A DNA stretch of 64,000 bases from an uncultured Bacteroidota bacterium (GTDB lineage: Bacteria > Bacteroidota > Bacteroidia > Flavobacteriales > Flavobacteriaceae): assembly GCA_902554655.1 (NCBI GenBank), contig CACDPE010000001.1, forward strand, positions 62,001 through 126,000, in the 5' to 3' direction. Each line of letters begins with the position of its first letter. The first letter of the stretch is position 1. Under the pieces are notes generated by a model. It was not told the DNA's origin. It saw only the letters and a list, made by a program, of their open reading frames with translations, and made no database searches. Shown here piece after piece: positions 8,931 to 24,749 of the stretch. A program made the translations under genes and the position numbers.

Positions 8931-9667
8931 CCGTCTAAAATATCATTGAAAATGTTTGGATGTTCCATCATAGGAGCATGACCACACTTGTCTATCCAAA
9001 ACAGATCAGAGTTAGGTAGAAGTTTATCAAAATCTTTTGCAACATCTGGTGGTGTTACAGTGTCTTGTTTTCCCCAAATTATTGCAGTTTCTACATTTAT
9101 TTTTGGTAAATCTTTTGCCATATTGTGTCTTATAGCACTTTTTGCCATTGCTAAAATTTTAATTAATTTTTTTCTATCATTGACTGTTTCAAAAATTTCA
9201 TCTACGATTTCTTTTGTTGCAACTTTCGGGTTATAAAAAACACCTTCAGTTTTTTTTCTTATAAATTTATAGTCTTCTCTTTTTGGGTAACTATCACCCA
9301 TGGAATTTTCATAGAGTCCAGAACTTCCGGTTAAAACTAACCCTTTTAATAAGATAGGAAAAAGTTTAGCATAAATTAATCCAACATGTCCACCTAAAGA
9401 ATTTCCGACAATTACAAAATCTTTAAGTTTTTTAAATTTTACAAATTCGTTTACAAACTTTGCAAAAAACTTAACATTTGTATCTAATAGTTTAGAAGTA
9501 TATACTGGTAACTCTGGAGCAATAACATTATAGTTTTTTTGTGGAAAGAAATTAAAGACATCTTCAAAGTTACTTAAGCCTCCCATAAGACCATGTAAAA
9601 TTAATATTGGCCTCCCTTTACCAACAGACCTATAGTTAAAGCCGTTTTCTGTAATAAAACTTTCCAA
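8906..9667 (-). CDS. Alpha/beta-fold hydrolase
   Basis: Serine hydrolase of the alpha/beta superfamily, 253 residues, without a signal peptide and so probably cytoplasmic. HGLMGG (about 25-30) is the oxyanion segment, GNSLGGH places the nucleophile at S90, WGKQDTVTP (about residue 200) carries the acid, and CGHAPMMEHP the catalytic His. The substrate is unknown. It overlaps engB by 25 bases and sits between engB and the mraZ cluster, an arrangement I recall from many Flavobacteriia, which suggests a housekeeping role. The start is TTG at 9667; no ATG is available. Confidence 0.88.
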   Translation of the reverse strand: MESFITENGFNYRSVGKGRPILILHGLMGGLSNFEDVFNFFPQKNYNVIAPELPVYTSKLLDTNVKFFAKFVNEFVKFKKLKDFVIVGNSLGGHVGLIYAKLFPILLKGLVLTGSSGLYENSMGDSYPKREDYKFIRKKTEGVFYNPKVATKEIVDEIFETVNDRKKLIKILAMAKSAIRHNMAKDLPKINVETAIIWGKQDTVTPPDVAKDFDKLLPNSDLFWIDKCGHAPMMEHPNIFNDILDGWLSKKNL

Positions 9668-9694
9668 AATCTATTATGTTTTATTAGTTGCAGA

Positions 9695-9722
9695 CAAAGA
9701 TATGTATTTCATTTTGAAACAA
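9695..9722 (-). promoter_or_regulatory. Promoter for the hydrolase-engB operon
   Basis: On the minus strand, a TTG (9720-9722) is followed after 17 bases by TATCTTTG (9695-9702), a full match to the -7 box TAnnTTTG. The spacing is canonical for Bacteroidota, and the start at 9667 lies about 20 bases downstream of the expected transcription start. It is back to back with the mraZ promoter in the longest non-coding gap of the window. Confidence 0.6.
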
Positions 9723-9816
9723 TAACATAAAATGAAGATAGAAAACTAAATTATAAATCTTTTTAAATCAATGATAATCAGCATTTTATGCCCATATCTT
9801 AAAAATTATTAACAAT

Positions 9817-9846
9817 GTGGTAAAAAGTGGTAAAAAGTGGTAAAAT
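9817..9846 (+). promoter_or_regulatory. MraZ operator: three tandem 10-bp repeats
   Basis: GTGGTAAAAA occurs three times at exact 10-base spacing (9817, 9827, 9837; the last copy ends in T). MraZ is known to bind tandem GTGG-type or TGGG-type repeats with 10-base periodicity upstream of its own gene in E. coli and Mycoplasma. The array lies just upstream of the -7 box at 9852-9859, which fits autoregulation of the division cluster. Binding is inferred from the pattern. Confidence 0.82.
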
Positions 9847-9851
9847 TTAAA

Positions 9852-9859
9852 TATATTTG
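9852..9859 (+). promoter_or_regulatory. -7 promoter box of the mraZ division cluster
   Basis: TATATTTG matches TAnnTTTG exactly. It begins six bases after the MraZ repeats and ends 19 bases before the mraZ ATG at 9879. The MraZ repeats occupy the place of the -33 element, so bound MraZ would be expected to compete with RNA polymerase. Confidence 0.65.
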
Positions 9860-9878
9860 ATATTAACGCTAATCTGAT

Positions 9879-10343
9879 ATGTATAATCTTATAGGCACAT
9901 ATGAATGCAAGATTGATAATAAGGGGAGAATTATGTTTCCTTCATCCTTTAAAAAACAGTTAGAAAAAGAACTTTCTAAAGGTTTTATTCTTAAAAGATC
10001 TGTATTCCAAAAATGTTTAGAACTCTTTCCTATTAATGAATGGGATGAAACAATGCTGGGAGTAAATAAGCTAAATCGATTCACAAAGAAAAATAATGAT
10101 TTTATTAGAAGATATACTGCTGGACTAAAGCATATTGAATTAGATAATGCTGGAAGAATATTAATTCCAAAAGATTTAATCAATTTCTCGCACCTTAAAA
10201 AAAATATTGTAATGTCAACAGCTCTAAATATCATTGAAATATGGGATAAGGAAATGTATGAAAATGCGATTAATGATTCAAATGTTGACTTTGCAAAATT
10301 AACGGAGGAAGTAATGGGTAATGATGACAATAATGTTTCATAA
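9879..10343 (+). CDS. mraZ: Transcriptional regulator MraZ
   Basis: DNA-binding regulator of the division and cell-wall cluster. The 154 residues form two SpoVT/AbrB-like halves, with signature segments IDNKGRIMFPS (about 12-22) and LDNAGRILIPK (about 87-97). The length is typical. It is the first gene of the cluster, directly downstream of a three-repeat operator and a clear -7 box, which implies it controls its own operon. Its 3' end overlaps the rsmH start region by up to 23 bases. Confidence 0.96.
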   Translation: MYNLIGTYECKIDNKGRIMFPSSFKKQLEKELSKGFILKRSVFQKCLELFPINEWDETMLGVNKLNRFTKKNNDFIRRYTAGLKHIELDNAGRILIPKDLINFSHLKKNIVMSTALNIIEIWDKEMYENAINDSNVDFAKLTEEVMGNDDNNVS

Positions 10344-11226
10344 ACCTGTTATGTTGTCCGAGGCGATTGATAGTCTTGAAATAAAAGAGAATGGAATTTA
10401 TGTTGATTTGACTTTTGGAGGAGGAGGTCATTCCAAAGAAATTTTAAAAAGAATAAATGATGATGGAAGATTAATAGCATTTGATCAGGATAAAAGTGCT
10501 ATAAAAAATAAAATTGATGACAATAGAGTTATGTTATTAAAGCAGAATTTCATTTATCTAGAACAAAATTTGAAATATTTAAAAATATCAAAAGTTGATG
10601 GTATTCTTGCAGATCTAGGTGTAAGTTCTTTTCAGTTCGATTCAATCGACAGAGGATTTAGCTATGAAAATGATTCAATCCTTGACATGAGAATGAATCA
10701 AGAATCAAGCATTGATGCAATGGAGATTTTAAATAACTATTGTGAAGCCAATCTTGCAAATATATTTTTTAATTATTCTGATTTAACAAATTCTAGACAA
10801 ATCGCAAAAAGTATAGTTGAAAAAAGAAAGACTAAAAAAATAAAATCTTCTAATAATTTAAACGAAATACTTTCCGAATTTATTAATCCTGGATATGAAA
10901 ATAAATTTTTAGCTAGAGTATACCAGGCTATAAGAATTGAGGTTAATCAAGAGATAAAAAACCTAAAAAAACTACTAAATCAACTTCCAAATTTATTAAA
11001 CCCAAATGGATTGGTTTCAATAATCACATACCATTCAGTTGAAGATAGGCTAGTTAAAAGATTTTTTAAAAATAATTGTTTTGAGAATGAACCAGTTAAG
11101 GATGATTTTGGAAATAAAATTTTATCAATTAAACCAAAACACAATTTTATTAAACCATCTGAATTAGAAATAAAAAATAATCCAAGAGCAAGAAGTGCTA
11201 AGCTAAGAACAGCCGTTAAACTATGA
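10321..11226 (+). CDS. rsmH: 16S rRNA (cytosine-1402-N4)-methyltransferase RsmH
   Basis: Methylates N4 of C1402 in 16S rRNA using S-adenosylmethionine. The SAM-binding motif TFGGGGHS sits at 31-38, GILADLGVSSFQFD follows around residue 100, and the C-terminal TYHSVEDRLVKRFFK is diagnostic. Three in-frame ATGs (10321, 10324, 10333) precede the conserved FHKPVML; family alignments as I recall them favour 10333, so the exact start is open. The gene overlaps mraZ, and its stop overlaps ftsL (ATGA). Confidence 0.95.
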   Translation: MMTIMFHKPVMLSEAIDSLEIKENGIYVDLTFGGGGHSKEILKRINDDGRLIAFDQDKSAIKNKIDDNRVMLLKQNFIYLEQNLKYLKISKVDGILADLGVSSFQFDSIDRGFSYENDSILDMRMNQESSIDAMEILNNYCEANLANIFFNYSDLTNSRQIAKSIVEKRKTKKIKSSNNLNEILSEFINPGYENKFLARVYQAIRIEVNQEIKNLKKLLNQLPNLLNPNGLVSIITYHSVEDRLVKRFFKNNCFENEPVKDDFGNKILSIKPKHNFIKPSELEIKNNPRARSAKLRTAVKL

Positions 11227-11540
11227 CAAATAAAATTGTTGACATACTGCTAGGAAAATTCTTAATTGAAAAAATTAATATTTACAATATCCGTTTTATA
11301 TTTTTTATTTTTTCTCTCGCTTTTCTACTGATATACTCTTCCCACAGTGTTGATAGTAAAGTGTACAAAATTAGTCAGTTAAACACTGAAGTTTCTGTTG
11401 CTGAATCAAACTTTATTGAGTTGAGAAAAAAACTTATGAATTTAAGAGTTGAGTCAACAGTAAGAAAAAAACTAATTGATAGAGAGATAAAACCTTCATT
11501 GAGTCCGCCAAGTAAAATAATAATATCCAGTATTAAATGA
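11223..11540 (+). CDS. ftsL: FtsL-like divisome protein
   Basis: Small bitopic membrane protein, 105 residues: a short cytoplasmic N-terminus, one membrane segment at about 22-43 (IRFIFFIFSLAFLLIYS) and a periplasmic part with heptad-like spacing (VYKISQLNTEVSVAESNFIELR) suited to a coiled coil. Similarity to FtsL is weak in sequence but position between rsmH and ftsI, topology and length all fit. In the divisome FtsL would pair with FtsB and FtsQ. It overlaps both neighbours by four bases (ATGA). Confidence 0.82.
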   Translation: MTNKIVDILLGKFLIEKINIYNIRFIFFIFSLAFLLIYSSHSVDSKVYKISQLNTEVSVAESNFIELRKKLMNLRVESTVRKKLIDREIKPSLSPPSKIIISSIK

Positions 11541-13381
11541 ACAACAATAAATTTGTATTAAAACTTTATGGATTTGCAACAGCTTTTTTATTGTTTGGTT
11601 TATTTATTGGTTATAAGTTATTCCACATACAGTTTGTTGACGGTGATAAATATCGACAATTAGGAGAAGATAAAACATTAAAATATTCAACGGTAAATCC
11701 CCAAAGAGGAAATATATATTCATTCGACGGGAGTTTACTTGCTACATCGACAATAATGTATGATGTTTATTTTGATTCAAAAACTGTAAAGAAAAAACTT
11801 TTTGATAGTGAAGTTTATAATCTTTCTAAAAAAATAGCAGAATTAAAATCAGTAGATAAAAATATAGTTCACAATTCATTAATCAGTGCAAGAAATAGCG
11901 GAAATAGATATTATTCAATAATTAAAAATATAGGTAAAGAAGATGTTGATAGAGTTAAGAGTTTCCCAATTTTTAAACATGGATCCATAAAGGGCGGAAT
12001 AATAGTAGAAAAGAAAATTAATAGAGAATTTCCATTAGGAAAAGTAGCTGAAAGAACTATTGGATATGAAAGAATTGACGAAAATGGTAATTATAGAGGA
12101 GTTGGTTTAGAACATGCTTTTGGAAAATATCTCAGAGGTCAGGATGGCTATATGTTAAAAAGAAAAATTTCAAATGGTCAATGGAAAACTTTGGATAATG
12201 AATTAAAAAAGGAACCAATCAATGGATTAGATATCATAACTACTATAGATAGTGAAATTCAAGATATTGTTCATGACTATTTACTTGAGCAAACAGAAAA
12301 ATATGATGCTCATCATTCATCAGCTATAGTAATGGAAGTTCAAACTGGTGATATTAAAGCAATATCAAATTTTGGATTAACTGAAAATGGTAAGTATTAT
12401 GAAAAATTAAATTATGCAATTGGTGAGGGAATTGAACCAGGTTCTACCTTTAAATTAATAGCTATTGCTGCAGCTTTAGAGGATCAAGTGATTGACACTT
12501 TAAGGAAAGTTGATACATCTGGCGGAATACTTGATTTTTATGGTTTTAAAGTTAGAGATAGTAGAAAAGGTGGATATGGAAAGATTAATGTTATGGATGC
12601 TATCAGGTTATCATCAAATACGGGAGTTGTTAAAATTATCGACTCTGTATATAATAAAAATTCAAAAAAATTTGTAGATCGTCTTTACAATTTTGGTATT
12701 GCTAATCCAGTAATAAGCTCAATTAAAGGTGAACCTAAACCAAAGATTCCTCATCCTAATGATGATAACTGGAATGGTTTATCATTACCATGGATGACTT
12801 ATGGTTATGGTGTAAATATGACTCCACTACAGATTTTAACATTTTATAATGCCATCGCTAATGAAGGAGAAGTTGTTAAGCCAAAATTTATTCACAGTAC
12901 AAGAAAGTTTGGAACTAATTATAATAAAATATATCCAAAACAAATTTTGAATAAGTCTATTTTTTCAATTAATACAAACAAATTATTAAAGAAGATGCTT
13001 TATGATGTAGTACATCATGAAAATGGAACAGCAAAGAACATAAAATCTAAGCACTTAAAGTTGTCTGGTAAAACAGGAACTGCACAGGTTGATTATGCAA
13101 AAGATAGTATAAATTATATTTCAAGTTTTGTTGGATATTTTCCATCAGATAAACCGAAATATTCTTGCATTATAGTTATAAATAAGCCTAATAAAACTAA
13201 AGGGTATTATGGTAACACAGTGGCAGCACCTGTATTTAAAAGAATAGCTGAAAAAATATTTTCAAAATATCCAAAAGTTGAAAAATATAATTTACATGAG
13301 CTAAATAAAAATATAAAGCTTTCAAAAATTCAAATTAAAAATAGTTCTAACCTTGATAAAATTGTAAGTAATGGAACTTAA
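11537..13381 (+). CDS. ftsI: Septal peptidoglycan transpeptidase FtsI (PBP3-like), without PASTA domain
   Basis: Class B penicillin-binding protein that cross-links septal peptidoglycan. After a membrane anchor (about 8-30) and a dimerisation domain with RGNIYS, the transpeptidase motifs are SxxK at 303-306 (PGSTFK), SxN at 359-361 (SSN) and KTG at 512-514 (SGKTGTAQ). The 614-residue chain stops about 35 residues after the transpeptidase fold (APVFKRIAEKI). Flavobacterial relatives I recall run to about 660 residues with a C-terminal PASTA domain, which is missing here. It overlaps ftsL by four bases and murE by eleven. Confidence 0.94.
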   Translation: MNNNKFVLKLYGFATAFLLFGLFIGYKLFHIQFVDGDKYRQLGEDKTLKYSTVNPQRGNIYSFDGSLLATSTIMYDVYFDSKTVKKKLFDSEVYNLSKKIAELKSVDKNIVHNSLISARNSGNRYYSIIKNIGKEDVDRVKSFPIFKHGSIKGGIIVEKKINREFPLGKVAERTIGYERIDENGNYRGVGLEHAFGKYLRGQDGYMLKRKISNGQWKTLDNELKKEPINGLDIITTIDSEIQDIVHDYLLEQTEKYDAHHSSAIVMEVQTGDIKAISNFGLTENGKYYEKLNYAIGEGIEPGSTFKLIAIAAALEDQVIDTLRKVDTSGGILDFYGFKVRDSRKGGYGKINVMDAIRLSSNTGVVKIIDSVYNKNSKKFVDRLYNFGIANPVISSIKGEPKPKIPHPNDDNWNGLSLPWMTYGYGVNMTPLQILTFYNAIANEGEVVKPKFIHSTRKFGTNYNKIYPKQILNKSIFSINTNKLLKKMLYDVVHHENGTAKNIKSKHLKLSGKTGTAQVDYAKDSINYISSFVGYFPSDKPKYSCIIVINKPNKTKGYYGNTVAAPVFKRIAEKIFSKYPKVEKYNLHELNKNIKLSKIQIKNSSNLDKIVSNGT

Positions 13382-14825
13382 AGAGCTCTTAAGAAATATT
13401 GAGTTTGTAAAATTTTTTGGTGTAAAAGATCGAATTATAAATGATGTTAAGAATAATTCAAGAGAAATAAAATTAAATGATTTATTCATAGCAATCGATG
13501 GAAATACAATTGATGGTCATATTTTTATAAATGATGCTATTGAAAATGGTTCAAAAACAATTATTTGTGAAACAATTCCTGATAAAATTCGCAATGATAT
13601 AACATATGTTCTTGTTAATAATACAAGAAAGGTTTATTCCAAAATTTGCTCAAATTATTTTAAAAATCCGAGCAAAAAAATGTACTTAATTGGAATTACA
13701 GGAACAAACGGAAAAACAACTACAGCTACTCTTCTATTTAAAATTTTCAATTTGTATGGATATAAGGTTGGATTATTGTCAACTAATAAAATTTTAATTG
13801 ATGGTAAAGAGTTTAAAACCGATTTAACAACACCTGACTCATATAAATTAAATTTTTATTTGAGTGAAATGGTTAATTCTAATGTCGAGTATTGTTTCAT
13901 GGAGGTTTCCTCACATTCTATTGATCAAGAAAGAATTTCAAATTTAGATTATGACATAGGAGTTTACACTAATATTTCTCATGATCATCTTAATTATCAT
14001 AAAACTTTTAAAAATTATATATATACAAAGAAGAAATTTTTTGATTCACTTTCTAAAGATTCATATTCATTAGTCAATATTGATGATAAAAATAGTAGTG
14101 TAATGGTTCAAAATACTAAATCAAAAATTAAAACATATTCTCTAAAAAAACTTTCAGATTACAACATAAAAATTATTGAAAATAACATTGAGGGATTAAT
14201 TATTCAATTGAATAATAAATTAATTCATACTCAAATTACAGGAAAATTTAATGCATATAATCTAGTCGCAGTATATGCAGTCTGTGACATATTAGGATTA
14301 GATCAAAATAAATCAATTGAATTATTAAGTAAGATAAAACCTGTTGAAGGTAGATTTCAAGTTATTGCAAAGAATGGAATTACTGGAATAGTGGATTTTG
14401 CTCATACACCTGATGCAATAGAGAAAGTTTTAGTTTCAGTTAAAGATTATGTAAAAAGTGATGGAATAATAATAACTGTAGTTGGATGTGGAGGAGGAAG
14501 AGACAAAGAAAAAAGAAATAAGATGGGCTATGTTTCATCTGAGTTAAGTGATTTAACAATTTTTACATCTGATAACCCTAGAAATGAAGATCCAAATCAA
14601 ATTATAGAAGATATGAAGATGGGTGTCGGTAATAAAAAAATAAAAAAAGTGAAAACTATAATTGATAGGAAAGATGCTATAAAATATGCTGTATCTAAAT
14701 CTAAGGTTAATGATATTCTATTAGTTCTGGGAAAAGGTCATGAAAAATATCAAATTGTTGGTGATAAGAAAATTGAATTCAGCGACAGTGAGGTACTTAA
14801 TAATTATTTAAAAATAGCTATATAA
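13371..14825 (+). CDS. murE: UDP-MurNAc-L-alanyl-D-glutamate--meso-diaminopimelate ligase MurE
   Basis: Adds the third stem-peptide residue to the cytoplasmic peptidoglycan precursor. The ATP-binding motif GTNGKTT is at 111-117, and the segments EVSSHSIDQ and NISHDHLNYH follow. DNPR at 401-404 is the motif associated with meso-diaminopimelate specificity, so the wall is predicted to be of the usual Gram-negative type. The 484-residue length is normal. It overlaps ftsI by eleven bases and shares one base with the mraY start. Confidence 0.96.
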   Translation: MELKELLRNIEFVKFFGVKDRIINDVKNNSREIKLNDLFIAIDGNTIDGHIFINDAIENGSKTIICETIPDKIRNDITYVLVNNTRKVYSKICSNYFKNPSKKMYLIGITGTNGKTTTATLLFKIFNLYGYKVGLLSTNKILIDGKEFKTDLTTPDSYKLNFYLSEMVNSNVEYCFMEVSSHSIDQERISNLDYDIGVYTNISHDHLNYHKTFKNYIYTKKKFFDSLSKDSYSLVNIDDKNSSVMVQNTKSKIKTYSLKKLSDYNIKIIENNIEGLIIQLNNKLIHTQITGKFNAYNLVAVYAVCDILGLDQNKSIELLSKIKPVEGRFQVIAKNGITGIVDFAHTPDAIEKVLVSVKDYVKSDGIIITVVGCGGGRDKEKRNKMGYVSSELSDLTIFTSDNPRNEDPNQIIEDMKMGVGNKKIKKVKTIIDRKDAIKYAVSKSKVNDILLVLGKGHEKYQIVGDKKIEFSDSEVLNNYLKIAI

Positions 14826-16033
14826 TGTTTTATTATTTGTTCGATTTTCTTGAAAAAAATTATCAGTTTGCTGGAGCTAGTCTTTTTCAATATCTGTCAT
14901 TCAGAGCAGGAATTACTTTTATACTAGCTTTATTTATTTCAACGGTTTTCGGAAAAAGAATAATTAATTATTTATCATTTAAGCAAATTGGTGAAAATAT
15001 AAGAGAGTTAGATTTACCAGGTGAGAACTTAAAGAAAGGAACCCCAACTATGGGTGGAATAATTATAATTATTTCAACAATAATTCCAATTATATTATTC
15101 GCTGATTTTAAAAACATTTATATAATAATCTTATTAATCTCAACTTTTTGGCTAGGTATTATTGGTTTTATTGATGACTATATCAAAGTTTTTAGAAAAA
15201 ATAAAAAAGGTTTAAAAGGCTCATTTAAAATTATTGGCCAGGTAATTCTTGGTCTTTATATTGGTTTCACAGTTTACTTTAATCCTGAAATAAAAACACA
15301 AAATATTTATGAAAAAAATCAAATAAATTTAGTTGATGAGCATAGTCTTAGTTCTAAGACTGGATCATTAAAAACTACAATTCCTTTTTTAAAAGATAAC
15401 GAATTAGATTATGAAGAGATATTTGGAATTAAATCAACAAATTTTAATTGGATATTTTATATAGTTATAATTACTCTTGTAATAGTGTCAGTTTCAAATG
15501 GAGCAAATTTGACTGACGGTTTAGATGGATTAGCAGCTGGTTCCTCCTCAATAATAATTTTTACACTTGGAATTTTTGCGTGGATTTCAGGAAATATAAT
15601 TTTCTCTGATTACTTAAACATAATGTATTTACCAGGAATAGGAGAAATAGTAGTTTTTGTTGCTGCAATGCTTGGAGGTTTGATAGGGTTTCTATGGTAC
15701 AATACATATCCTGCCCAAGTTTTTATGGGTGATACAGGAAGTCTGACTGTAGGTGGTTTGATTGCCATAATAGCAATTTTAGTTAGAAAGGAATTACTAC
15801 TTCCGATTTTATGTGGAGTTTTCTTAGTTGAAACTTTATCTGTAATTGTTCAGGTAAGTTATTTTAAATATTCTAAAAAGAAATTTGGTGTAGGAAAGAG
15901 GATCTTTCTCATGACACCAATTCATCATCATTTTCAGAAGAGAGGATACAGTGAAAGTAAAATAGTAGCAAGATTCTGGATTGTCTGTATAATGCTGGCA
16001 ATTTTATCATTAATAACATTAAAAGTAAGATGA
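14825..16033 (+). CDS. mraY: Phospho-MurNAc-pentapeptide transferase MraY
   Basis: Integral membrane enzyme that loads phospho-MurNAc-pentapeptide onto undecaprenyl phosphate to form lipid I. Conserved elements include KKGTPTMGG (about 75-83), FIDDYIKV, NLTDGLDGLAAG and FMGDTGSLTVGG, which carry the catalytic aspartates, and TPIHHHFQKRG near the C-terminus. At 402 residues it is longer than the 360-residue E. coli protein because of a loop at about 155-200, as is usual in Bacteroidota. It overlaps murD by four bases. Confidence 0.96.
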   Translation: MFYYLFDFLEKNYQFAGASLFQYLSFRAGITFILALFISTVFGKRIINYLSFKQIGENIRELDLPGENLKKGTPTMGGIIIIISTIIPIILFADFKNIYIIILLISTFWLGIIGFIDDYIKVFRKNKKGLKGSFKIIGQVILGLYIGFTVYFNPEIKTQNIYEKNQINLVDEHSLSSKTGSLKTTIPFLKDNELDYEEIFGIKSTNFNWIFYIVIITLVIVSVSNGANLTDGLDGLAAGSSSIIIFTLGIFAWISGNIIFSDYLNIMYLPGIGEIVVFVAAMLGGLIGFLWYNTYPAQVFMGDTGSLTVGGLIAIIAILVRKELLLPILCGVFLVETLSVIVQVSYFKYSKKKFGVGKRIFLMTPIHHHFQKRGYSESKIVARFWIVCIMLAILSLITLKVR

Positions 16034-17382
16034 TAAAAAAACAAATGACAACAATATTAGGCTCTGGATTGAGTGGAATGGGTGCTGTTAAACTTGCTAT
16101 TAAAAAAAATATCTCTGTTTATCTATCTGATCATTCTGTGATTTCTGATGATGTAAAAGAATTTTTGTTAAAAAATAATATAAAATTTGAAGAAAATGGT
16201 CATAATTGGGATAAAATTTCTAGTTCAAAAGAAATTGTAATTAGTCCTGGTATATCTTCTAATAAGATTATTGAAAATATACCTTTATTTGATAAAAAAA
16301 ATATAATTTCTGAAATTGAATTTGCAAGTAGATATACAAATTCATTTTTAATTGCAGTTACAGGATCTAACGGTAAGACAACAACAAGTTATTTAATATA
16401 TCATATTTTAAAGAGCTCTGGATTTAATGTTGGAATTGCAGGAAATATGGGCAAAAGCTTTTCAGAATCTATTTCTGATAGTCAATTTGAATATTATGTT
16501 CTTGAAGTTAGTAGTTTTCAATTAGATGATATTGTAAAATTTAAACCAGATATATCAATAATAACTAATATTTCTGAAGATCATTTAGATCGATATAACT
16601 ATTCATTTTTTAATTACATCAGTTCAAAGTTTAGAATTACAAAAAATCAAACTTTAGATAACACTTTAATTTTAAATGGAAAGTGTGAGAACTCAATAAA
16701 TTTTTTAAAGGATATAAAAATAAAATCGCAATTAATAATAACTAATAAGAATAAAATTAGTAACGAAAAATCTGAAACGATTTTTCTTAAAGAAAATAAA
16801 ATTAAATCAACAATCAATAATAATTATCTTATGATGGATATAAATAATTTATCAATCCAAGGGAATCATAATATTCAGAACTCTATGGCAGCTATTTGTG
16901 TTGCGCAACTTTTGAATATTTCAAATGAATCGATTAAAGAAAGTCTTAGATCATTTAAAAATATTCCACATCGTTTAGAACATTTTTTAACCATCCAAAA
17001 GGTTAAATATATTAATGACTCTAAAGCCACTAATGTTAATGCTGTTTACTATGCATTGCAATCAGTAAAAACTCAAATTGTATGGATAATTGGGGGAGTT
17101 GATAAAGGAAATGATTATTCTGATTTGATTCCTTTTGTTAAAAATAAAGTTAAGGCGATTATTTGTTTGGGTAAGGATAACTCAAAACCTATAGAATTTT
17201 TCTCAAGTCATTGTGATTTAATTGTAAGTACAAACAATATGAAAGATGCTGTAAAAAGTGCATATGAGTTTGCAAAACAAAATGATACTGTTTTATTATC
17301 TCCTGCATGTGCAAGTTTTGATTTGTTTAAAAATTTTGAGGATAGAGGAGATCAATTTAAAGAAGAAGTAAGAAAATTATGA
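16030..17382 (+). CDS. murD: UDP-MurNAc-L-alanine--D-glutamate ligase MurD
   Basis: Adds D-glutamate to UDP-MurNAc-L-Ala. The N-terminal GSGLSGMGAVKLA binds the UDP moiety, GSNGKTTTSY near residue 115 is the ATP loop, and NISEDHLDRYN and HRLEH are the ligase signatures; the C-terminal domain ends with SPACASFDLFKNFEDRGDQF, typical of MurD. The 450-residue length is normal. Start and stop both overlap their neighbours by four bases (ATGA), indicating coupled translation with mraY and ftsW. Confidence 0.95.
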   Translation: MIKKQMTTILGSGLSGMGAVKLAIKKNISVYLSDHSVISDDVKEFLLKNNIKFEENGHNWDKISSSKEIVISPGISSNKIIENIPLFDKKNIISEIEFASRYTNSFLIAVTGSNGKTTTSYLIYHILKSSGFNVGIAGNMGKSFSESISDSQFEYYVLEVSSFQLDDIVKFKPDISIITNISEDHLDRYNYSFFNYISSKFRITKNQTLDNTLILNGKCENSINFLKDIKIKSQLIITNKNKISNEKSETIFLKENKIKSTINNNYLMMDINNLSIQGNHNIQNSMAAICVAQLLNISNESIKESLRSFKNIPHRLEHFLTIQKVKYINDSKATNVNAVYYALQSVKTQIVWIIGGVDKGNDYSDLIPFVKNKVKAIICLGKDNSKPIEFFSSHCDLIVSTNNMKDAVKSAYEFAKQNDTVLLSPACASFDLFKNFEDRGDQFKEEVRKL

Positions 17383-18542
17383 GTTTAATATCAAAGTTAA
17401 AGGGAGATAAAGTTGTTTGGTATGTTGTCCTAGCTTTATCATTCTTTTCTTTTTTACCAATTTTTAGTGCAAGCTCAAATTTTGGTACAAACTTTATTTT
17501 CTCAAATTTATTCAAACATGTAGCTATTATAATAGTTGGAATATTGATAATGTATACTACTCATTTAATCGATTACAAATACTTTAAAGGCTTATCTAAA
17601 ATAATTTTACCCTTAATTATTATATTATTAATATTTACAGCAGTTCAAGGAAATGAAATTGAAGGAGCAAATGCAAGTCGATGGATTAATATACCTTTAA
17701 TCGGAATTTCATTTCAACCATCTTCATTAGCCTCAATTTTTTTATTGATTTATATATCTAATTTTTTGTCAAAAAACATCGACAAAAAGTTAGACTTTAG
17801 ATCCTCATTTTTTCCACTATGGATTCCTATCCTAATGGTGATATTATTAATCTTACCTTCAAATTTTTCTACTTCACTAATGATATTTATGATGGTATTA
17901 ACTATACTATTCTTGGGACAATATCCATTTAAATATATTTCTTCAATAATATTAATAGGAATTATTTTAGCATCAACTTTTGTTTTATTTGCAAAAAATT
18001 ATCCAGATTTAATACCTAACAGAATTGATACTTGGACTAGCAGGATTGAAAATTATATTAATCCTGTTTCTGAAGAATCAAATTATCAAATAAATAGAGC
18101 AAAAGCAGCAATTGCAAATGGATCATTATTCGGAGTTGGGGCAGGAAAAAGCTCTATGAAATATATTCTTCCACAAAGTACTTCAGACTTTATTTATTCA
18201 ATAATTACTGAAGAATATGGTTTAGTAATAGCAATATTAATCCTTTTTCTGTACTTAATATTATTGTTTAGAATAATTATTATTTCATATAAAGCAACCT
18301 CAATATTTGGAAAATTAATTGCATTATCTGTCGGATTACCAGTTGTATTTCAGGCGTTTATTAACATGGGAGTTGCTGTTCAATTAATCCCTGTTACTGG
18401 GCAACCTTTACCATTAATTAGTATGGGAGGTACATCAATATGGACAACATTTTTAGCATTTGGAATATTATTAAGTGTAAGTGCAAAAAAAATAAATAGT
18501 GATTTGGAATTAAATACAATCGATGAAAAAAAACATGGATAA
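17379..18542 (+). CDS. ftsW: Septal peptidoglycan glycosyltransferase FtsW
   Basis: SEDS-family polymerase that builds septal glycan strands together with FtsI. The 387 residues form about ten membrane segments. GANASRWINIP (about 98-108), QPSSLA and the C-terminal PLPLISMGGTS are SEDS signatures; NRAKAAIANGSLFGVGAGKS is the conserved extracellular segment. It lacks a long cytoplasmic tail. It overlaps murD by four bases and murG by up to twenty. Confidence 0.95.
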   Translation: MSLISKLKGDKVVWYVVLALSFFSFLPIFSASSNFGTNFIFSNLFKHVAIIIVGILIMYTTHLIDYKYFKGLSKIILPLIIILLIFTAVQGNEIEGANASRWINIPLIGISFQPSSLASIFLLIYISNFLSKNIDKKLDFRSSFFPLWIPILMVILLILPSNFSTSLMIFMMVLTILFLGQYPFKYISSIILIGIILASTFVLFAKNYPDLIPNRIDTWTSRIENYINPVSEESNYQINRAKAAIANGSLFGVGAGKSSMKYILPQSTSDFIYSIITEEYGLVIAILILFLYLILLFRIIIISYKATSIFGKLIALSVGLPVVFQAFINMGVAVQLIPVTGQPLPLISMGGTSIWTTFLAFGILLSVSAKKINSDLELNTIDEKKHG

Positions 18543-19623
18543 AAAGTTTTTAATATCTGGCGGTGGTACTGGAGGACATATATACCCTGCTATAGCAATA
18601 GCTGATGAAATTAAAGAAAGATTTTCAAGTTCCAAGATACTATTTACAGGTTCAAGTTCTAGAATGGAAATGAAAAAGATTCCAGAAAACGGATATAAAA
18701 TAAGTGGATTATGGATATCTGGTTTTAATAGAAAAAACTTTTTTTCAAATTTATTATTTCCATTAAAAGTTATCGTTAGTCTAGTACAATCAATTAAAAT
18801 CTTACATGCATTTAAACCAAATGTAGTTATTGGAACAGGTGGATTTGCAAGCGGACCAACTTTATTTATTGCTAATCTTTTAAGAATTCCAATTTTTATT
18901 CAAGAGCAAAATTCTTATCCAGGCATCACTAATAAAATATTATCGAAATATGCTGACAAAATTTTTGTATCCTATGATAGAATGGAAAAATTCTTTCCAA
19001 AAGAAAAAATTTTGAATTATGGGAATCCTGTTAGAAATAGATTTGGTAAAGCTGATAATATTAAAATAGAAAAATTTATAAAAGCATATGATATTAATAA
19101 AAACAATAAAACAATTTTATTTCTCGGTGGAAGTTTGGGGTCTCAAGTTATGAATGAGTTTGTCATGAATAACATTGATTATTTTGAAAAAAGTAATTAT
19201 AATGTAATTCTTCAATGTGGAGAAAGGTATAAAAATAAAATAAAAGATAATAAATCTAAGAATGTAATTATTTTACCTTTTATTGATCAAATGCCAACGG
19301 TAATATCTTGCTCTGATTTAATTGTTTCAAGAGCAGGTGCCATTATCATTTCTGAATTATCCTTTGTAGGCAAACCTGTTATTTTTATTCCATCACCAAA
19401 TGTTGCTGAAGATCACCAAACAAAAAATGCAAAATATTTATATGATTTGGAAGCTGCAGAATTAATTCATGAGGATGAAATTCATTATAAACTAAAGAAT
19501 ATAATTAATAAAATTTTTATTAGTGATAAATATAGAAATCAATTAGCTAATAATCTAAAATCACTTTCAACTTTAAAGTCCACAAAGTTAATAGTTGATG
19601 AAATTGAAAAGTATATTAAATGA
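18523..19623 (+). CDS. murG: UDP-N-acetylglucosamine--lipid I GlcNAc transferase MurG
   Basis: Peripheral inner-membrane glycosyltransferase converting lipid I to lipid II. The N-terminal SGGGTGGHIYPA loop is at about 12-23, GTGGFASGP and the NSYPGITNK segment follow, and SRAGAIIISEL with EDHQTKNA binds the UDP-GlcNAc donor. The 366-residue length is normal. Two in-frame ATGs, 18523 and 18535, are both possible; the second would give an eight-base overlap with ftsW. murC follows with an ATGA overlap. Confidence 0.95.
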   Translation: MKKNMDKKFLISGGGTGGHIYPAIAIADEIKERFSSSKILFTGSSSRMEMKKIPENGYKISGLWISGFNRKNFFSNLLFPLKVIVSLVQSIKILHAFKPNVVIGTGGFASGPTLFIANLLRIPIFIQEQNSYPGITNKILSKYADKIFVSYDRMEKFFPKEKILNYGNPVRNRFGKADNIKIEKFIKAYDINKNNKTILFLGGSLGSQVMNEFVMNNIDYFEKSNYNVILQCGERYKNKIKDNKSKNVIILPFIDQMPTVISCSDLIVSRAGAIIISELSFVGKPVIFIPSPNVAEDHQTKNAKYLYDLEAAELIHEDEIHYKLKNIINKIFISDKYRNQLANNLKSLSTLKSTKLIVDEIEKYIK

Positions 19624-20969
19624 AATACCAAGATTACAAATATTATTTTTTCATAGGCGTAGGAGGAATTGGAATGTCATCCTTAGCTAAGTATTTATCT
19701 ATCAAGAATAAAAATATTGCTGGATATGATAGAGAAAAAACAGAATTGACTTGTAATTTAGAAAAAATAGGTATTGATATTTTATATGATTTTGATATAA
19801 ATAATATTGATAAAAGTTTTAAAGACCCAACGAAAACATTAGTAATTTATACCCCTGCAATTTCAAATAATAATCAACTCTTTAAATTTTTTAAAGATTT
19901 ACATTTTACTATTATTAAAAGATCCGACTTACTAGCATCAATAGTAAATAATAATTTTTCTATAGCGATTGCTGGTACACATGGTAAAACAACTATAACT
20001 GCAATTTTGTCTCACATATTAAGCGTTTCCAATCTAAATTACACTGCTTTCATTGGTGGAATTTCAAATGAAAATAACTCAAATCTCAAATCTATTGGAG
20101 ATGAAATTTTTATTGTTGAAGCTGATGAATATGATAGAACATTTTTAAAATTAAAACCTAATATTATTTGTATTAATAATATTGATGGTGATCATTTTGA
20201 TATTTATAATGGTTATAATGATTTAAAAAAATCATTTGTACAATTTTCTAAAAACCTACGTGATGACGGCGTATTGATTGCTAATGATGAATTAAACTTT
20301 GAATCAATTAATTATGGATTTAGGAATGATTCAAATTTTGTTATAAAAAACTTAAGGACAGTGGCTGGTCAGTCAATCTTTGATATAGAAACAAAAGATA
20401 TTAAGTATAAAAATATTCATTTTAATATGTTAGGAAAATATAATTGTATTAATGCTCTTGCTGCAATAATTATTTCTTTTAAATTGAATATTTCATTTGA
20501 TTTAATTAAAAAAAGTCTAAAGACCTTTAAAGGAGTAAAAAGAAGACTCTCTTTTGAGCTTACTAAGCCAAAAATATTAATTGACGATTATGCTCATCAC
20601 CCAAAAGAGATTCAATCTGTTTTTAACTGCTTAGATGATGTTTATCCTTGTCTTAAGAAATTTGTGATATTCCAACCTCATTTATTTACTAGAACAAGAG
20701 ATTTTATTGATGAGTTTGCTCAAAGTTTAGAAAAGTTTGATAGAGTGGTTTTGTTAGATATATATCCAGCTAGGGAAAAACCTATTAAAGGTATAACATC
20801 AAGACTAATACTTGAAAAAATAAAAAATGAAAATAAATCATTAGCAAATGAAAACGAATTATTAGATATAATCAATAAGGATAATTCTGAAATTATAATA
20901 ACAATGGGAGCTGGAAGTATTGGAAAAATATGTCAGTCTTTAAAAAAAAAATTAATACTTGAAAATTAA
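19620..20969 (+). CDS. murC: UDP-N-acetylmuramate--L-alanine ligase MurC
   Basis: First amino-acid ligase of the stem peptide. The N-terminal FIGVGGIGMSSLAKYL is the UDP-binding loop, AGTHGKTT (about 117-124) the ATP loop, and EADEYDRTFL, NIDGDHFD and DDYAHHPKEI are MurC signatures. The 449 residues match the family. It overlaps murG by four bases and the TTG-initiated ftsQ by eleven. Confidence 0.96.
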   Translation: MKYQDYKYYFFIGVGGIGMSSLAKYLSIKNKNIAGYDREKTELTCNLEKIGIDILYDFDINNIDKSFKDPTKTLVIYTPAISNNNQLFKFFKDLHFTIIKRSDLLASIVNNNFSIAIAGTHGKTTITAILSHILSVSNLNYTAFIGGISNENNSNLKSIGDEIFIVEADEYDRTFLKLKPNIICINNIDGDHFDIYNGYNDLKKSFVQFSKNLRDDGVLIANDELNFESINYGFRNDSNFVIKNLRTVAGQSIFDIETKDIKYKNIHFNMLGKYNCINALAAIIISFKLNISFDLIKKSLKTFKGVKRRLSFELTKPKILIDDYAHHPKEIQSVFNCLDDVYPCLKKFVIFQPHLFTRTRDFIDEFAQSLEKFDRVVLLDIYPAREKPIKGITSRLILEKIKNENKSLANENELLDIINKDNSEIIITMGAGSIGKICQSLKKKLILEN

Positions 20970-21672
20970 GTTTATACATATAATATTTACAATTTTTATT
21001 TCATTAAAAATTTTAGCTGTAGTTTATACAAACTATGTTAATGGATTTAATATTTCCACAATAACTTCCTCAAATATCTTTTCTGATTCTTATAATTTTA
21101 TATCCAATGATTCTATATTCAATATTCTTAAATCATCAAAACTAATATCTGATTCAATTTCAGTAAAGTCTATTAATTTAGAAAAAATTGAGTCAAAACT
21201 ATTAGACATACCATTTATAGATCAAGTTTCATCATCTATTGATATTCAATCAAATTTTTCATTAGAAATTGTAGAAAAGAAACCTATAATTGACCTAAAA
21301 GATTATGATTTTTATTTATCTGAAAAGGGAGAAAGAATTCCAAGAATTGAGAACAAAAAACTTAATATTAAGAGTTTTTTCGGAAAAATTGATTCAATAG
21401 TATTTTGTGATTTAGCTTCTGTAGCTAAGTACATTAATAATGATAATTTCTTTATTGAACATATAAAATATATTTATGCAGATAGCACTAGTTTTTACTT
21501 TTCTGTTAATGATTATAAATATCAAGTAAAACTTGGTAATCTTAATCATTTTGAAAACAAACTAAAAAAATATAAAGGTTTTTATGCAGCAAAAGTCAAT
21601 ACAGATTTACTTAAAAATTTTAATAAACTCGATTTAAACTTCAATAATCAAGTAATAGCACAAAAAAAATAA
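20959..21672 (+). CDS. ftsQ: Cell division protein FtsQ
   Basis: Bitopic divisome protein that links FtsB/FtsL to the cytoplasmic ring. The 237 residues start with a membrane segment (about 4-20), followed by a periplasmic domain that includes a POTRA-like part and a FtsQ-type C-terminus. Overall conservation is low, as is usual for this gene, and the call rests on topology, length and position between murC and ftsA. The only start compatible with the membrane segment is TTG at 20959. One base separates it from ftsA. Confidence 0.85.
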   Translation: MKIKFIHIIFTIFISLKILAVVYTNYVNGFNISTITSSNIFSDSYNFISNDSIFNILKSSKLISDSISVKSINLEKIESKLLDIPFIDQVSSSIDIQSNFSLEIVEKKPIIDLKDYDFYLSEKGERIPRIENKKLNIKSFFGKIDSIVFCDLASVAKYINNDNFFIEHIKYIYADSTSFYFSVNDYKYQVKLGNLNHFENKLKKYKGFYAAKVNTDLLKNFNKLDLNFNNQVIAQKK

Positions 21673-21673
21673 T

Positions 21674-22981
21674 ATGGAAAATAATGAATTATACATCGGA
21701 TTAGATATTGGAACTACAAAAATTGTAGCAATGATAGGTGATGTTAATGAGTATGATAAATTAAAAATTGTTGGAATTGGTAAATCAAAAAGTTTAGGTG
21801 TTCATCGTGGAGTCGTGAATAACATAACTCAAACAATTCAATCAATTCAGTCAGCAGTGGAAGAGGCTGAATTAAATTCAAGTTATAAAATAGATAAAGT
21901 AGTCGTTGGTATTGCCGGTCAACATATTAGGAGCTTACAACATAGTGATTATATAACACGTGAAAACTCTGATCAAGTCATTGATAAAGAAGATATTGAT
22001 AGGTTGATAAACCAGGTTTATAAGTTAGTTATGCTGCCTGGTGAGGAAATTATTCATGTTTTACCTCAGGATTATAAAGTTGATGGTCAAGGTGAAATAA
22101 AAGAGCCAATTGGAATGTTTGGATCGAGGGTAGAAGCTAATTTTCATGTAGTTGTTGGGCAGGTAAGTTCAATTAAAAATATTGCAAGATGTGTAAAAAG
22201 TGCAGGAATTGATTTTGATGGAATAACTTTAGAACCATTGGCATCTGCTGATGCAGTTTTAAGTCAAGAAGAAAAAGAAGCTGGAGTTGCTTTAATTGAC
22301 ATAGGTGGTGGAACTACTGACTTAGCAATCTTCAAAGATGGTATAATAAGACATACGGCGGTTATTCCTTTTGGTGGAAATATTATAACTGATGATATTA
22401 AAGAAGGGTGTTCTATAATTGAGAAACAGGCGGAGCTATTAAAAATAAAATTTGGATCTGCTTGGCCTGGTGAGAATAAAGAAAATGAAATTGTTTCAAT
22501 TCCAGGATTAAGAGGACGTGATCCCAAAGAAATTACACTAAAAAATCTTTCCAAAATTATTAACGCAAGAATTGTAGAAATAATAGAACAAGTATTTATT
22601 GAAATCAAGAATTATGGACATGATGAACAAAAGAAAAAATTGATTGCTGGAATTGTTTTAACAGGCGGAGGTAGTCAATTAAATCATCTCAAGCAAACTG
22701 TTGAATATGTGACTGGAATGGATACACGACTTGGTCAACCAAATGAACATTTGGCTGGTAATAATTCTATTGAAATTTCAAATCCAACTTTTGCAACTGC
22801 AGTAGGTCTTGTCATGAATTCAATGAATAGAAAAAAAATTGATAAAAAAGATTATGATGAAAATCAGGATGAAAATTCAGATGAGGAATCAGTTACAAAT
22901 AATAAAAATACAGATTTTTCAAAAACAGTTTTTGAAAAATTTACAGATAAAATAAAAAATTTTTTAGAGAACGCAGAATAA
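21674..22981 (+). CDS. ftsA: Cell division protein FtsA
   Basis: Actin-like ATPase that tethers FtsZ to the inner membrane. IGLDIGTTKIVAMIG (about 7-21) is phosphate-binding loop 1, IDIGGGTTDLAIF (about 203-215) loop 2, and GIVLTGGGSQLNHL the adenosine motif. The C-terminal end (VFEKFTDKIKNFLENAE) has the amphipathic look of a membrane-targeting helix, after an acidic linker rich in Asp and Glu. The 435 residues are normal for Bacteroidota. Ten bases separate it from ftsZ. Confidence 0.96.
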   Translation: MENNELYIGLDIGTTKIVAMIGDVNEYDKLKIVGIGKSKSLGVHRGVVNNITQTIQSIQSAVEEAELNSSYKIDKVVVGIAGQHIRSLQHSDYITRENSDQVIDKEDIDRLINQVYKLVMLPGEEIIHVLPQDYKVDGQGEIKEPIGMFGSRVEANFHVVVGQVSSIKNIARCVKSAGIDFDGITLEPLASADAVLSQEEKEAGVALIDIGGGTTDLAIFKDGIIRHTAVIPFGGNIITDDIKEGCSIIEKQAELLKIKFGSAWPGENKENEIVSIPGLRGRDPKEITLKNLSKIINARIVEIIEQVFIEIKNYGHDEQKKKLIAGIVLTGGGSQLNHLKQTVEYVTGMDTRLGQPNEHLAGNNSIEISNPTFATAVGLVMNSMNRKKIDKKDYDENQDENSDEESVTNNKNTDFSKTVFEKFTDKIKNFLENAE

Positions 22982-22991
22982 TATAACAACT

Positions 22992-24749
22992 ATGAACACA
23001 AATCAAGATTATAACAATTTAACCTTTGATTTACCAAAAAATCAAAGTAATGTCATTAAAGTAATTGGAGTTGGAGGTGGAGGAAGTAATGCAATTAACC
23101 ATATGTTTTTGAAAGGTATTAAGGGTGTGGATTATGTAGTTTGTAATACAGACTCGCAAGCTTTAAAAAACAGTCCTGTTCCAAACAAAATCCAGTTGGG
23201 AGTTAACTTAACAGAAGGAATGGGTGCAGGTGCTGATCCAACTGTTGGTGAACAAGCAGCAATTGAAAATCTTAGTGAACTGAGAGATATGTTAGAAAAA
23301 AATACAAAAATGGTGTTTATTACTGCAGGAATGGGCGGTGGTACTGGGACTGGTGCTGCACCAATAATTTCAAAATTAGCAATGGAGATGGATATTTTGA
23401 CTGTTGGAATTGTAACAATGCCGTTTGTTTTTGAAGGAAAAATAAGACAAAATCAAGCAAATAAAGGTTTAGAGAAACTTAAAAATAACTGCGATTCAAT
23501 TATAGTTGTTAATAATAACAAATTAAGAGATATATATGGTAATTTAGGTGTAAAGGAAGGTTTTTCTAAGGCAGATGAAGTGCTTGCAACTGCGGCCAAA
23601 GGAATTGCAGAAGTTATTACTCATCATTACACTCAAAATATTGATTTAAAAGACGCTAAAGCAGTTTTATCTAAAAGTGGAAGTGCTATAATGGGCTCTG
23701 CTGGTTCATCAGGTGATAAAAGAGCTATTAAAGCTGTAACTAACGCTTTAGATTCTCCTTTACTTAATGATAATAGAATTCAAGGAGCACAAAACGTATT
23801 GCTATTAATTCTTTCTGGTTCAAGTGAAGTAACTATTGATGAAATAGGTATTATAAACGATTATATTCAAGAGAGAGCTGGCAATAATGTAAATATTATT
23901 ATGGGGATTGGTGAGGATTCGAATCTTATTGATGAAATATCTGTAACTGTGATTGCAACTGGTTTTGATATTAGTTTACAAGATGAAATTATACATGTTG
24001 ATCCTAAAAAGAAAATTCATTATTTAGGTGAAGAAAGTGAAGTAGTTGAAAAATTTGAAGAGAAAAAGTCAGATCCTCCTCTCCAATACGATTATGCATC
24101 CGATTCAATTGATTTTAAAAACATTGATTTTGATTCCGACAGTTTAGAGGATCTTAATAGTAGAACAGAAATTGTTGAAATTGAAGATGTTAGAGATATT
24201 GATGTTGAATTTGAAACTGTAGCTTTTAACAAATCAGAAATTATTGATAAAAGAATCGAATTAGATTTTAGAGATATTTATGTTAATGATGCTGAAATAG
24301 TAAAATCTGAAGATAAAAATTTAAGTTCTGATAAAGTAATTCATATTTTGGAAGAAGATATTAACGATATCGAAGTAATTGACCCAGTTCAGATTATTCC
24401 ATACACAATGGTTGGTGATTCAGAGTCACTAAAAGTTACAGATGAAATAAATACAAACCCTGAAAATAAAAAATCTGTTGAAGATTTTAATCCATTTGAT
24501 AACCCGATTGCAAAAGCACTAGCTAAACGAACCGAAGAAAGAAAAATAAAACTAAAAGAATTTAATTATAAATTTGCAAAGGCAATTAGAGTAGAGGATA
24601 TGGAAAAAGAGCCTGCATATAAGAGAGCTGGTATTGATTTAGAAAACGATTTAAGTACTGAAATTTCCTTAACAAAAGTTGAAGAAGATGATAATGGAAA
24701 TATAGAACTAAAATCAAACAACTCTTTTTTACATGATAATGTTGACTAA
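22992..24749 (+). CDS. ftsZ: Cell division protein FtsZ with long acidic C-terminal region
   Basis: Tubulin-like GTPase that forms the division ring. The tubulin signature GGGTGTG is at 115-121, and the GTPase core extends to about residue 330. The remaining 250 or so residues are an Asp/Glu-rich, low-complexity linker followed by a conserved tail ending in NNSFLHDNVD. I recall this tail from flavobacterial FtsZ; E. coli FtsZ is only 383 residues. The YKFAKAIRVEDMEKEPAYKR stretch before it is another lineage-typical segment. Confidence 0.97.
   Translation: MNTNQDYNNLTFDLPKNQSNVIKVIGVGGGGSNAINHMFLKGIKGVDYVVCNTDSQALKNSPVPNKIQLGVNLTEGMGAGADPTVGEQAAIENLSELRDMLEKNTKMVFITAGMGGGTGTGAAPIISKLAMEMDILTVGIVTMPFVFEGKIRQNQANKGLEKLKNNCDSIIVVNNNKLRDIYGNLGVKEGFSKADEVLATAAKGIAEVITHHYTQNIDLKDAKAVLSKSGSAIMGSAGSSGDKRAIKAVTNALDSPLLNDNRIQGAQNVLLLILSGSSEVTIDEIGIINDYIQERAGNNVNIIMGIGEDSNLIDEISVTVIATGFDISLQDEIIHVDPKKKIHYLGEESEVVEKFEEKKSDPPLQYDYASDSIDFKNIDFDSDSLEDLNSRTEIVEIEDVRDIDVEFETVAFNKSEIIDKRIELDFRDIYVNDAEIVKSEDKNLSSDKVIHILEEDINDIEVIDPVQIIPYTMVGDSESLKVTDEINTNPENKKSVEDFNPFDNPIAKALAKRTEERKIKLKEFNYKFAKAIRVEDMEKEPAYKRAGIDLENDLSTEISLTKVEEDDNGNIELKSNNSFLHDNVD

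Follow-up and report, generated by a model that had tools for sequence, protein, structure and literature searches.

MraZ operators and DnaA boxes are both already known kinds of site. Among the described mraZ promoters, that of Escherichia coli carries boxes of the GTGGG type with a 10-bp period just 5' of mraZ and rsmH; in strain K-12 they read AGTGGG-AAAT-TGTGGG-GCAA-AGTGGG. The E. coli promoter is of another type than the one described here, and the word TTATYAACA is absent from the 160 bases of it that were read. In Mollicutes, the MraZ motif consists of direct repeats AAAGTG[T/G] located in the mraZ promoter (Fisunov 2016, quoted in an excerpt of PMC8475190). For DnaA, the accessible part of PMC7561715 gives TTWTNCACA as the consensus of the box and R399, P423, D433, H434, T435, and H439 as the contact residues of the E. 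coli protein, T435 contacting a base. A precedent for the meeting of the two kinds of site is the E. coli mioC promoter, where, according to an excerpt of PMC4446571, an MraZ site overlaps a DnaA box. We found no report of an MraZ operator joined to a DnaA box at the promoter of a division and cell-wall (dcw) cluster, and none of a Bacteroidota DnaA box with A at position 6 (A6); most subscription journals lay outside the search, so these negatives are weak evidence of absence.

The window studied here is a stretch of 64,000 nucleotides from an uncultured bacterium of the Flavobacteriaceae, whose own assembly comprises 1.10 Mb and is 68% complete. Judged by its domain content, the forward-strand gene at 9879..10343 (154 aa) is mraZ (PF02381, E 3.4e-23; TIGR00242, 98.5 bits with a cut-off of 98.35; alignment) and heads a division and cell-wall cluster that extends to ftsA and ftsZ. 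It is followed on the same strand by rsmH (mraW) at 10321..11226 (PF01795, TIGR00006), an ftsL-like gene at 11223..11540 (PF19579 FtsL_2), and the gene of a division penicillin-binding protein (ftsI-like) at 11537..13381 (PF00905, PF03717). The remaining dcw genes, read from open reading frames and Pfam, occupy 13371..24749 (forward strand) and include murE-like, mraY, further genes, murG, ftsA, and ftsZ; the five named genes have a Pfam basis, and murD, ftsW, murC, and ftsQ were recognized by eye only.

Upstream of mraZ, three MraZ boxes read directly from the forward strand follow one another: GTGGTAAAAA at 9817..9826, GTGGTAAAAA again at 9827..9836, and GTGGTAAAAT, with one change, at 9837..9846. 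Their GTGG starts lie 62, 52, and 42 bp 5' of the mraZ ATG, a period of exactly 10 bp. Eleven bases separate the last GTGG from TATATTTG (9852..9859, forward strand), an element of the form TAnnTTTG that we take to be the Bacteroidota-type -7 element. The initial annotation had placed three repeat copies at exact 10-base spacing directly before TATATTTG and the mraZ start. The position (element at 9852-9859, ATG at 9879, mraZ by PF02381 and TIGR00242) and the spacing are borne out, the latter also in its agreement with known MraZ operators, as the E. coli boxes have the same period; of the copies, two are exact and the third carries the change just mentioned. The contrast that had been drawn between a Mycoplasma GTGG form and an E. 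coli TGGG form had to be abandoned. Since GTGGG is also what the E. coli boxes show, with an identical period, it is a matter of register, not of kind; members of the window's own genus likewise have GTGGG boxes (L007, L013, L019), and a division of the boxes into "Mycoplasma" and "E. coli" classes was rejected as a register artefact. As far as the excerpt cited above describes the Mollicutes site, the window resembles it in having AAAGTGG within its array and differs from it in belonging to a walled bacterium with a full dcw cluster, a TAnnTTTG promoter, and an adjoining 9-mer. The boxes cover the stretch expected to hold a -33 element, as had been stated, the expected -33 position presumably falling within box 2. 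The three repeats are strongly conserved and are probably an operator of MraZ on the dcw promoter, a prediction made from sequence; with the array over the -33 position, occlusion may fairly be inferred, and a repressing role is predicted.

In the own assembly, the search with GTGGTAAAAAGTGGTAAAA, a 19-base piece of the array, at up to three mismatches gave four matches: two exact and overlapping ones at mraZ, one with two mismatches inside a frame read by eye as rpoB (L003), and one with three mismatches (L004). The reversed pattern gave five matches at the same tolerance, so only the exact ones count, and no second array was seen with this search elsewhere in the 68%-complete assembly. A sigma-70 scan of 9600-10000, with six sites where shuffles gave 3.0 (sd 1.8), was not used as evidence.

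We studied the distribution of the array in two sets of loci. Of the window's own genome and those of 59 relatives, 60 in all, 53 have MraZ, and the relative set contained 53 mraZ loci from 52 relatives, G018 having supplied two; its copies (L039, L057) lie on two contigs of one draft genome, perhaps of mixed strains. Three exact GTGG boxes were found in 43 of the 53 loci and weaker arrays in nine, and the remaining one (L047), missed by the script, reads GTGG, GTGG, ATGG by eye and lacks the 9-mer described below. The named set consisted of the best 80 of 560 confirmed mraZ loci from at least 593 candidates, a choice that favours close relatives. All of these best 80 loci have a three-box array, one altered box being allowed, and 75 of them have three exact GTGG; TAnnTTTG starts 10-12 bp past the last GTGG in all 80, and the 120-base upstream stretches are all different. 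The two counts overlap slightly, as L099, L100, and L101 of the named set are DNA also present in the relative set. The conservation in relatives that the initial annotation had called for was thus found; its remark that MraZ has been little studied in this phylum agrees with a search on the Flavobacterium MraZ motif that gave nothing related, at incomplete coverage. Another 30 loci were taken from one f5 genome and from families elsewhere in the phylum; 27 of them score like at least two boxes, a count made without a shuffle control and including a match (L226) inside coding sequence. In the congeners G003 and G015 (loci L008 and L010), the third box touches TATATTTG and is fused to it as GTGGTATATTTG, which puts the whole array 11 bp nearer to this -7 element. 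Several Flavobacterium-type loci (L123, L162, L163, L176, and others) have an extra GTGG 21 bp before the first box, beyond TTATYAACA.

The initial annotation had missed a conserved TTATYAACA abutting the array. In the window it was read directly as TTATTAACA at 9806..9814 on the forward strand, ends 2 bp before the first MraZ box, and is a possible DnaA-type box. In the relative set (53 loci, L047 entered by eye), the distance between the exact 9-mer and the first exact GTGG is at most 16 bp in 42 loci and at most 80 bp in six others, and five have no exact 9-mer in this range. In the named set (best 80 of 560) the exact word was found at 75 loci and a variant at the other five (TAATGAACA, TTATAAACA, TTATGAACA, TTTTCAACA, and TTTTCAACT); with the variants included, the gap between the 9-mer and the array is 2 bp in 59 loci and 3 bp in 21. 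The composite pattern TTATYAACA-NN-GTGG-N6-GTGG was revealed in 34 of 395 genomes of the phylum (reversed-pattern control, 0), and all of them belong to the window's family, where they make up 34 of the 41 members sampled. Across families the letters of the 9-mer are largely kept, with an array gap of 1-4 or 12-13 bp. In the f6 loci L046 and L052, TTATYAACA does not adjoin the array but stands some 60 bp 5' of it. Single copies of the word are common (10 in the window, 5.7 expected), and the argument for the 9-mer rests on its position and conservation.

The word also occurs in pairs at other genes. Of 149 genomes belonging to the family, 134 contain TTATYAACA-N10-13-TTATYAACA (reversed control, 5), as do 69 of 197 belonging to the class (reversed control, 9). 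The proteins encoded downstream, one of each kind verified by Pfam, were HU (25), DnaB (3), and others (2) at 30 family loci, and HU (16), PurH (4), ParA (2), UvrA (1), and others (7) at 30 class loci. Such an occurrence is what a DnaA-box reading leads one to look for: pairs with a spacing of about 20 bp stand before hup (the HU gene) and dnaB, with parA and purH added in some families, and pairs occur before other genes as well. At the 25 family HU loci the pair starts exactly 77 bp before TAnnTTTG, and at 14 of the 16 class HU loci, those with TAnnTTTG seen, it starts 77-80 bp before it. HU promoters with the pair 20 bp apart are among L074, L075, L091, L095, and L239-L268. Nine dnaB upstream regions carry the pair (L076, L249, L259, L264, L321, and L323-L326); in L323-L326 it is followed by TTGTTGAT or TTGTTAAT, an inverted partial copy, and the other five look similar by eye. 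In some class genomes the pair was seen before parA (L340, L341), purH (L332-L334, L346), and uvrA (L335). No pair was found in the window's own assembly (68% complete).

Comparison of TTATYAACA with the DnaA consensus TTWTNCACA showed agreement at eight of nine positions, the sole mismatch being A for C at position 6, owing to which TTATTAACA is not a full-consensus DnaA box. Like a DnaA box, the word is a non-palindromic 9-mer found near replication and chromosome genes; it differs in the A at position 6, and its binding by DnaA is a prediction. We compared the words with the residue of DnaA at the position of T435. The dnaA gene of the window itself was not found in its incomplete assembly. 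All 17 genomes with the pair and a readable DnaA helix have Ala435, against five of the 19 tested genomes without the pair, the other 14 having Ser or Thr (f89 was unreadable; G337 of f5, G041, G044, and G057 were left out).

A second comparison concerned the words at mraZ in 71 of 74 genomes. Words within 60 bp upstream of the array were accepted on both strands, as TTWTNAACA (A6) or as TTWTNCACA or TTGTCCACA (C6). Among the 43 Ala435 genomes, 40 have the A6 word, two the C6 word, and one neither; among the 28 Ser/Thr435 genomes the C6 word was found in 15, the A6 word in six, and neither in seven. Under this loose rule, shuffled stretches gave 2.0% (A6) and 0.9% (C6), and stretches 120-180 bp upstream gave six and three of 71. 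Under a strict rule (30 bp), 37 of the 43 Ala and four of the 28 Ser/Thr genomes have TTWTYAACA on the coding strand; exact TTATCCACA, with both strands allowed, was found in none of the 43 Ala and in four of the 28 Ser/Thr genomes. Of the three genomes dropped, G613 and G059 had a DnaA uncaught by the script (both Ala when read, with the A6 word present), and G677 had no array and an unread DnaA; G661 was kept as Ser without a box, its array score being only 2. Eight more were not entered: G595 and G626 (helix unread), G582, G591, G607, and G711 (no MraZ), and G587 and G600 (no DnaA). It should be added that TTTTCCACA, when inverted, reads TGTGGAAAA and can be mistaken for an MraZ box. Part of the C6 matches may therefore belong to MraZ, and the Ser/Thr count is the weaker for it.

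In a DnaA tree built without the DNA-binding domain (G631 excluded as too short), both Ala versus Ser/Thr and A6 versus C6 follow mainly one deep split (48 versus 22 rows), with additional residue changes at f25, f5, and f9. A phylogeny-aware sign test had only two independent pairs on supported branches (p = 1) and therefore no power; for this reason a Fisher p of 4e-10 at the level of families overstates the case and does not count here as proving that residue and box changed together. Taken alone, the association between residue and box, which stems mostly from a single deep split and has exceptions, is no proof. Two exceptions, f21 and f121, have Ala435 with the C6 word. A further one, f5, has Ser435, yet an A6-type word at mraZ in five of five genomes, and in two of its genomes Tyr stands at the place of His439.

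We consider it on balance probable that 9806-9859 is a composite MraZ and DnaA operator of the dcw promoter, both bindings and the signs of their effects being predicted from sequence. MraZ, the product of the first downstream gene, would bind the three in-phase GTGG boxes; once bound, it would cover the -33 region and shut the promoter, so that MraZ would repress its own gene and those that follow. TTATYAACA would be a lineage-specific DnaA box, with A6 for C6, read by a DnaA in whose recognition helix Ala replaces Thr435. In most families the 9-mer and the array are 1-4 or 12-13 bp apart, a distance that would put both on about the same face of the helix, where DnaA could touch MraZ or compete with it. 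Transcription of the dcw cluster would thereby be able to follow the replication initiator, as it may at hup and dnaB with their paired boxes. The mioC promoter is similar in having MraZ and (here putative) DnaA sites at one promoter; as far as the excerpt of its source goes, the sites overlap there, whereas in the window they abut, at the dcw promoter, and are conserved over many families.

It has long been asked how bacteria match the expression of their division genes to the replication of the chromosome, and this conserved 54-bp site, where the operator of the division-cluster regulator adjoins a possible DnaA box, is a testable case of such matching. The adjoining predicted sites may tie division genes to DNA replication in a large bacterial group. 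For a wider proposal we see even prospects of being right or wrong: that in a large clade of Bacteroidia the replacement of Thr/Ser435 by Ala in the recognition helix of DnaA went along with a change of the DnaA word, from TTWTNCACA to TTATYAACA, that its regulon includes hup, dnaB, parA, and mraZ with the dcw cluster, and that a box welded to the MraZ operator lets initiation and division transcription be read at one site. If the A6 word is that of DnaA, origin and DnaA-regulon predictions based on TTWTNCACA miss real boxes in many Bacteroidia.

The MraZ operator would also stand if TTATYAACA were the site of another cell-cycle regulator of the class, a reading that we regard as rather unlikely. 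It gains from the departure of the 9-mer from the DnaA box at a conserved position, from the lack of power of the phylogeny-aware test, and from f5, which keeps the word at mraZ with Ser435 and one genome of which (G053) has five TTATCCACA elsewhere, clustered in about 170 bp between two frames (L096, G053:C1:1939000-1943500, at 2002-2169). This cluster is perhaps the replication origin of that genome. The f5 family presumably resembles Elizabethkingia. The predicted origin of Elizabethkingia carries TTATCCACA boxes, according to the accessible part of PMC8994065. The same reading gains from the origin search in G036, one complete genome of the family, where GC skew, computed from 40 samples of 20 kb, has its minimum at about 889 kb. 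In the 240 kb around this minimum no cluster of at least four boxes of either type in 300 bp was found, and in this search the A6 word therefore did not turn up at an origin. Inspection of 11 dnaA neighbourhoods gave no clear cluster, the exception being that of G024 (L062), where two TTATTAACA lie near dnaA at a spacing of 13 bp. Against another regulator speak the match to the DnaA box at eight of nine positions, the many targets among replication or chromosome genes, and the DnaA base-contact residue, which differs along the same deep split. The 9-mer is thus more likely to be bound by DnaA than by another cell-cycle regulator.

It is improbable that TTATYAACA is merely a worn fourth half-site or a flank of the MraZ operator. 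The 9-mer does start 11-12 bp before the first GTGG, near the register of the array, and the further GTGG 21 bp before the first box in several Flavobacterium-type records fits such an origin; its letters, however, are largely kept across families while the gap is 1-4 or 12-13 bp, and none of the 72 pair loci has GTGG-N6-GTGG within about 100 bp of the pair, so the word is not merely a part of the MraZ site.

As to the sign of the regulation, MraZ at the array would hardly be an activator: overexpression of MraZ in M. gallisepticum went with more FtsZ, but in M. genitalium mraW, MG_223, and ftsZ went up by log2 2-3 when mraZ was lost (both from the excerpt of PMC8475190), and the boxes lie over the -33 position, the third one touching TATATTTG in G003 and G015. 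That the array is a chance repeat in AT-rich DNA can be dismissed as refuted: single units are at chance level (11 matches in the window with at most one mismatch, 10.0 expected), but the window holds a single GTGGN6GTGGN6GTGG where none of 100 dinucleotide shuffles has any, and the array is kept in all of the best 80 of the 560 confirmed loci.

Word counts in 0.98 Mb of G036 gave a few further observations. Intergenic TTATYAACA was found 17 times, the reversed word eight times, and four altered words 14, 13, 6, and 19 times; on these control-word counts a general intergenic enrichment of TTATYAACA was rejected, a point against the DnaA reading. A tandem triple of TTATYAACA at 3873311 of G036 was rejected as an origin, since it lies inside a coding frame. 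The canonical-type word TTATYCACA occurs 15 times in coding sequence and not at all in the 115 kb of intergenic sequence, and its reversed form 38 times in coding and four times in intergenic sequence. In addition, TTATCAACA, given in an excerpt of the literature as a DnaA-type box of the Cyanothece linear chromosome, was noticed by eye in G036 near 16372 (L301), 66 bp before a gyrB/parE-like frame.
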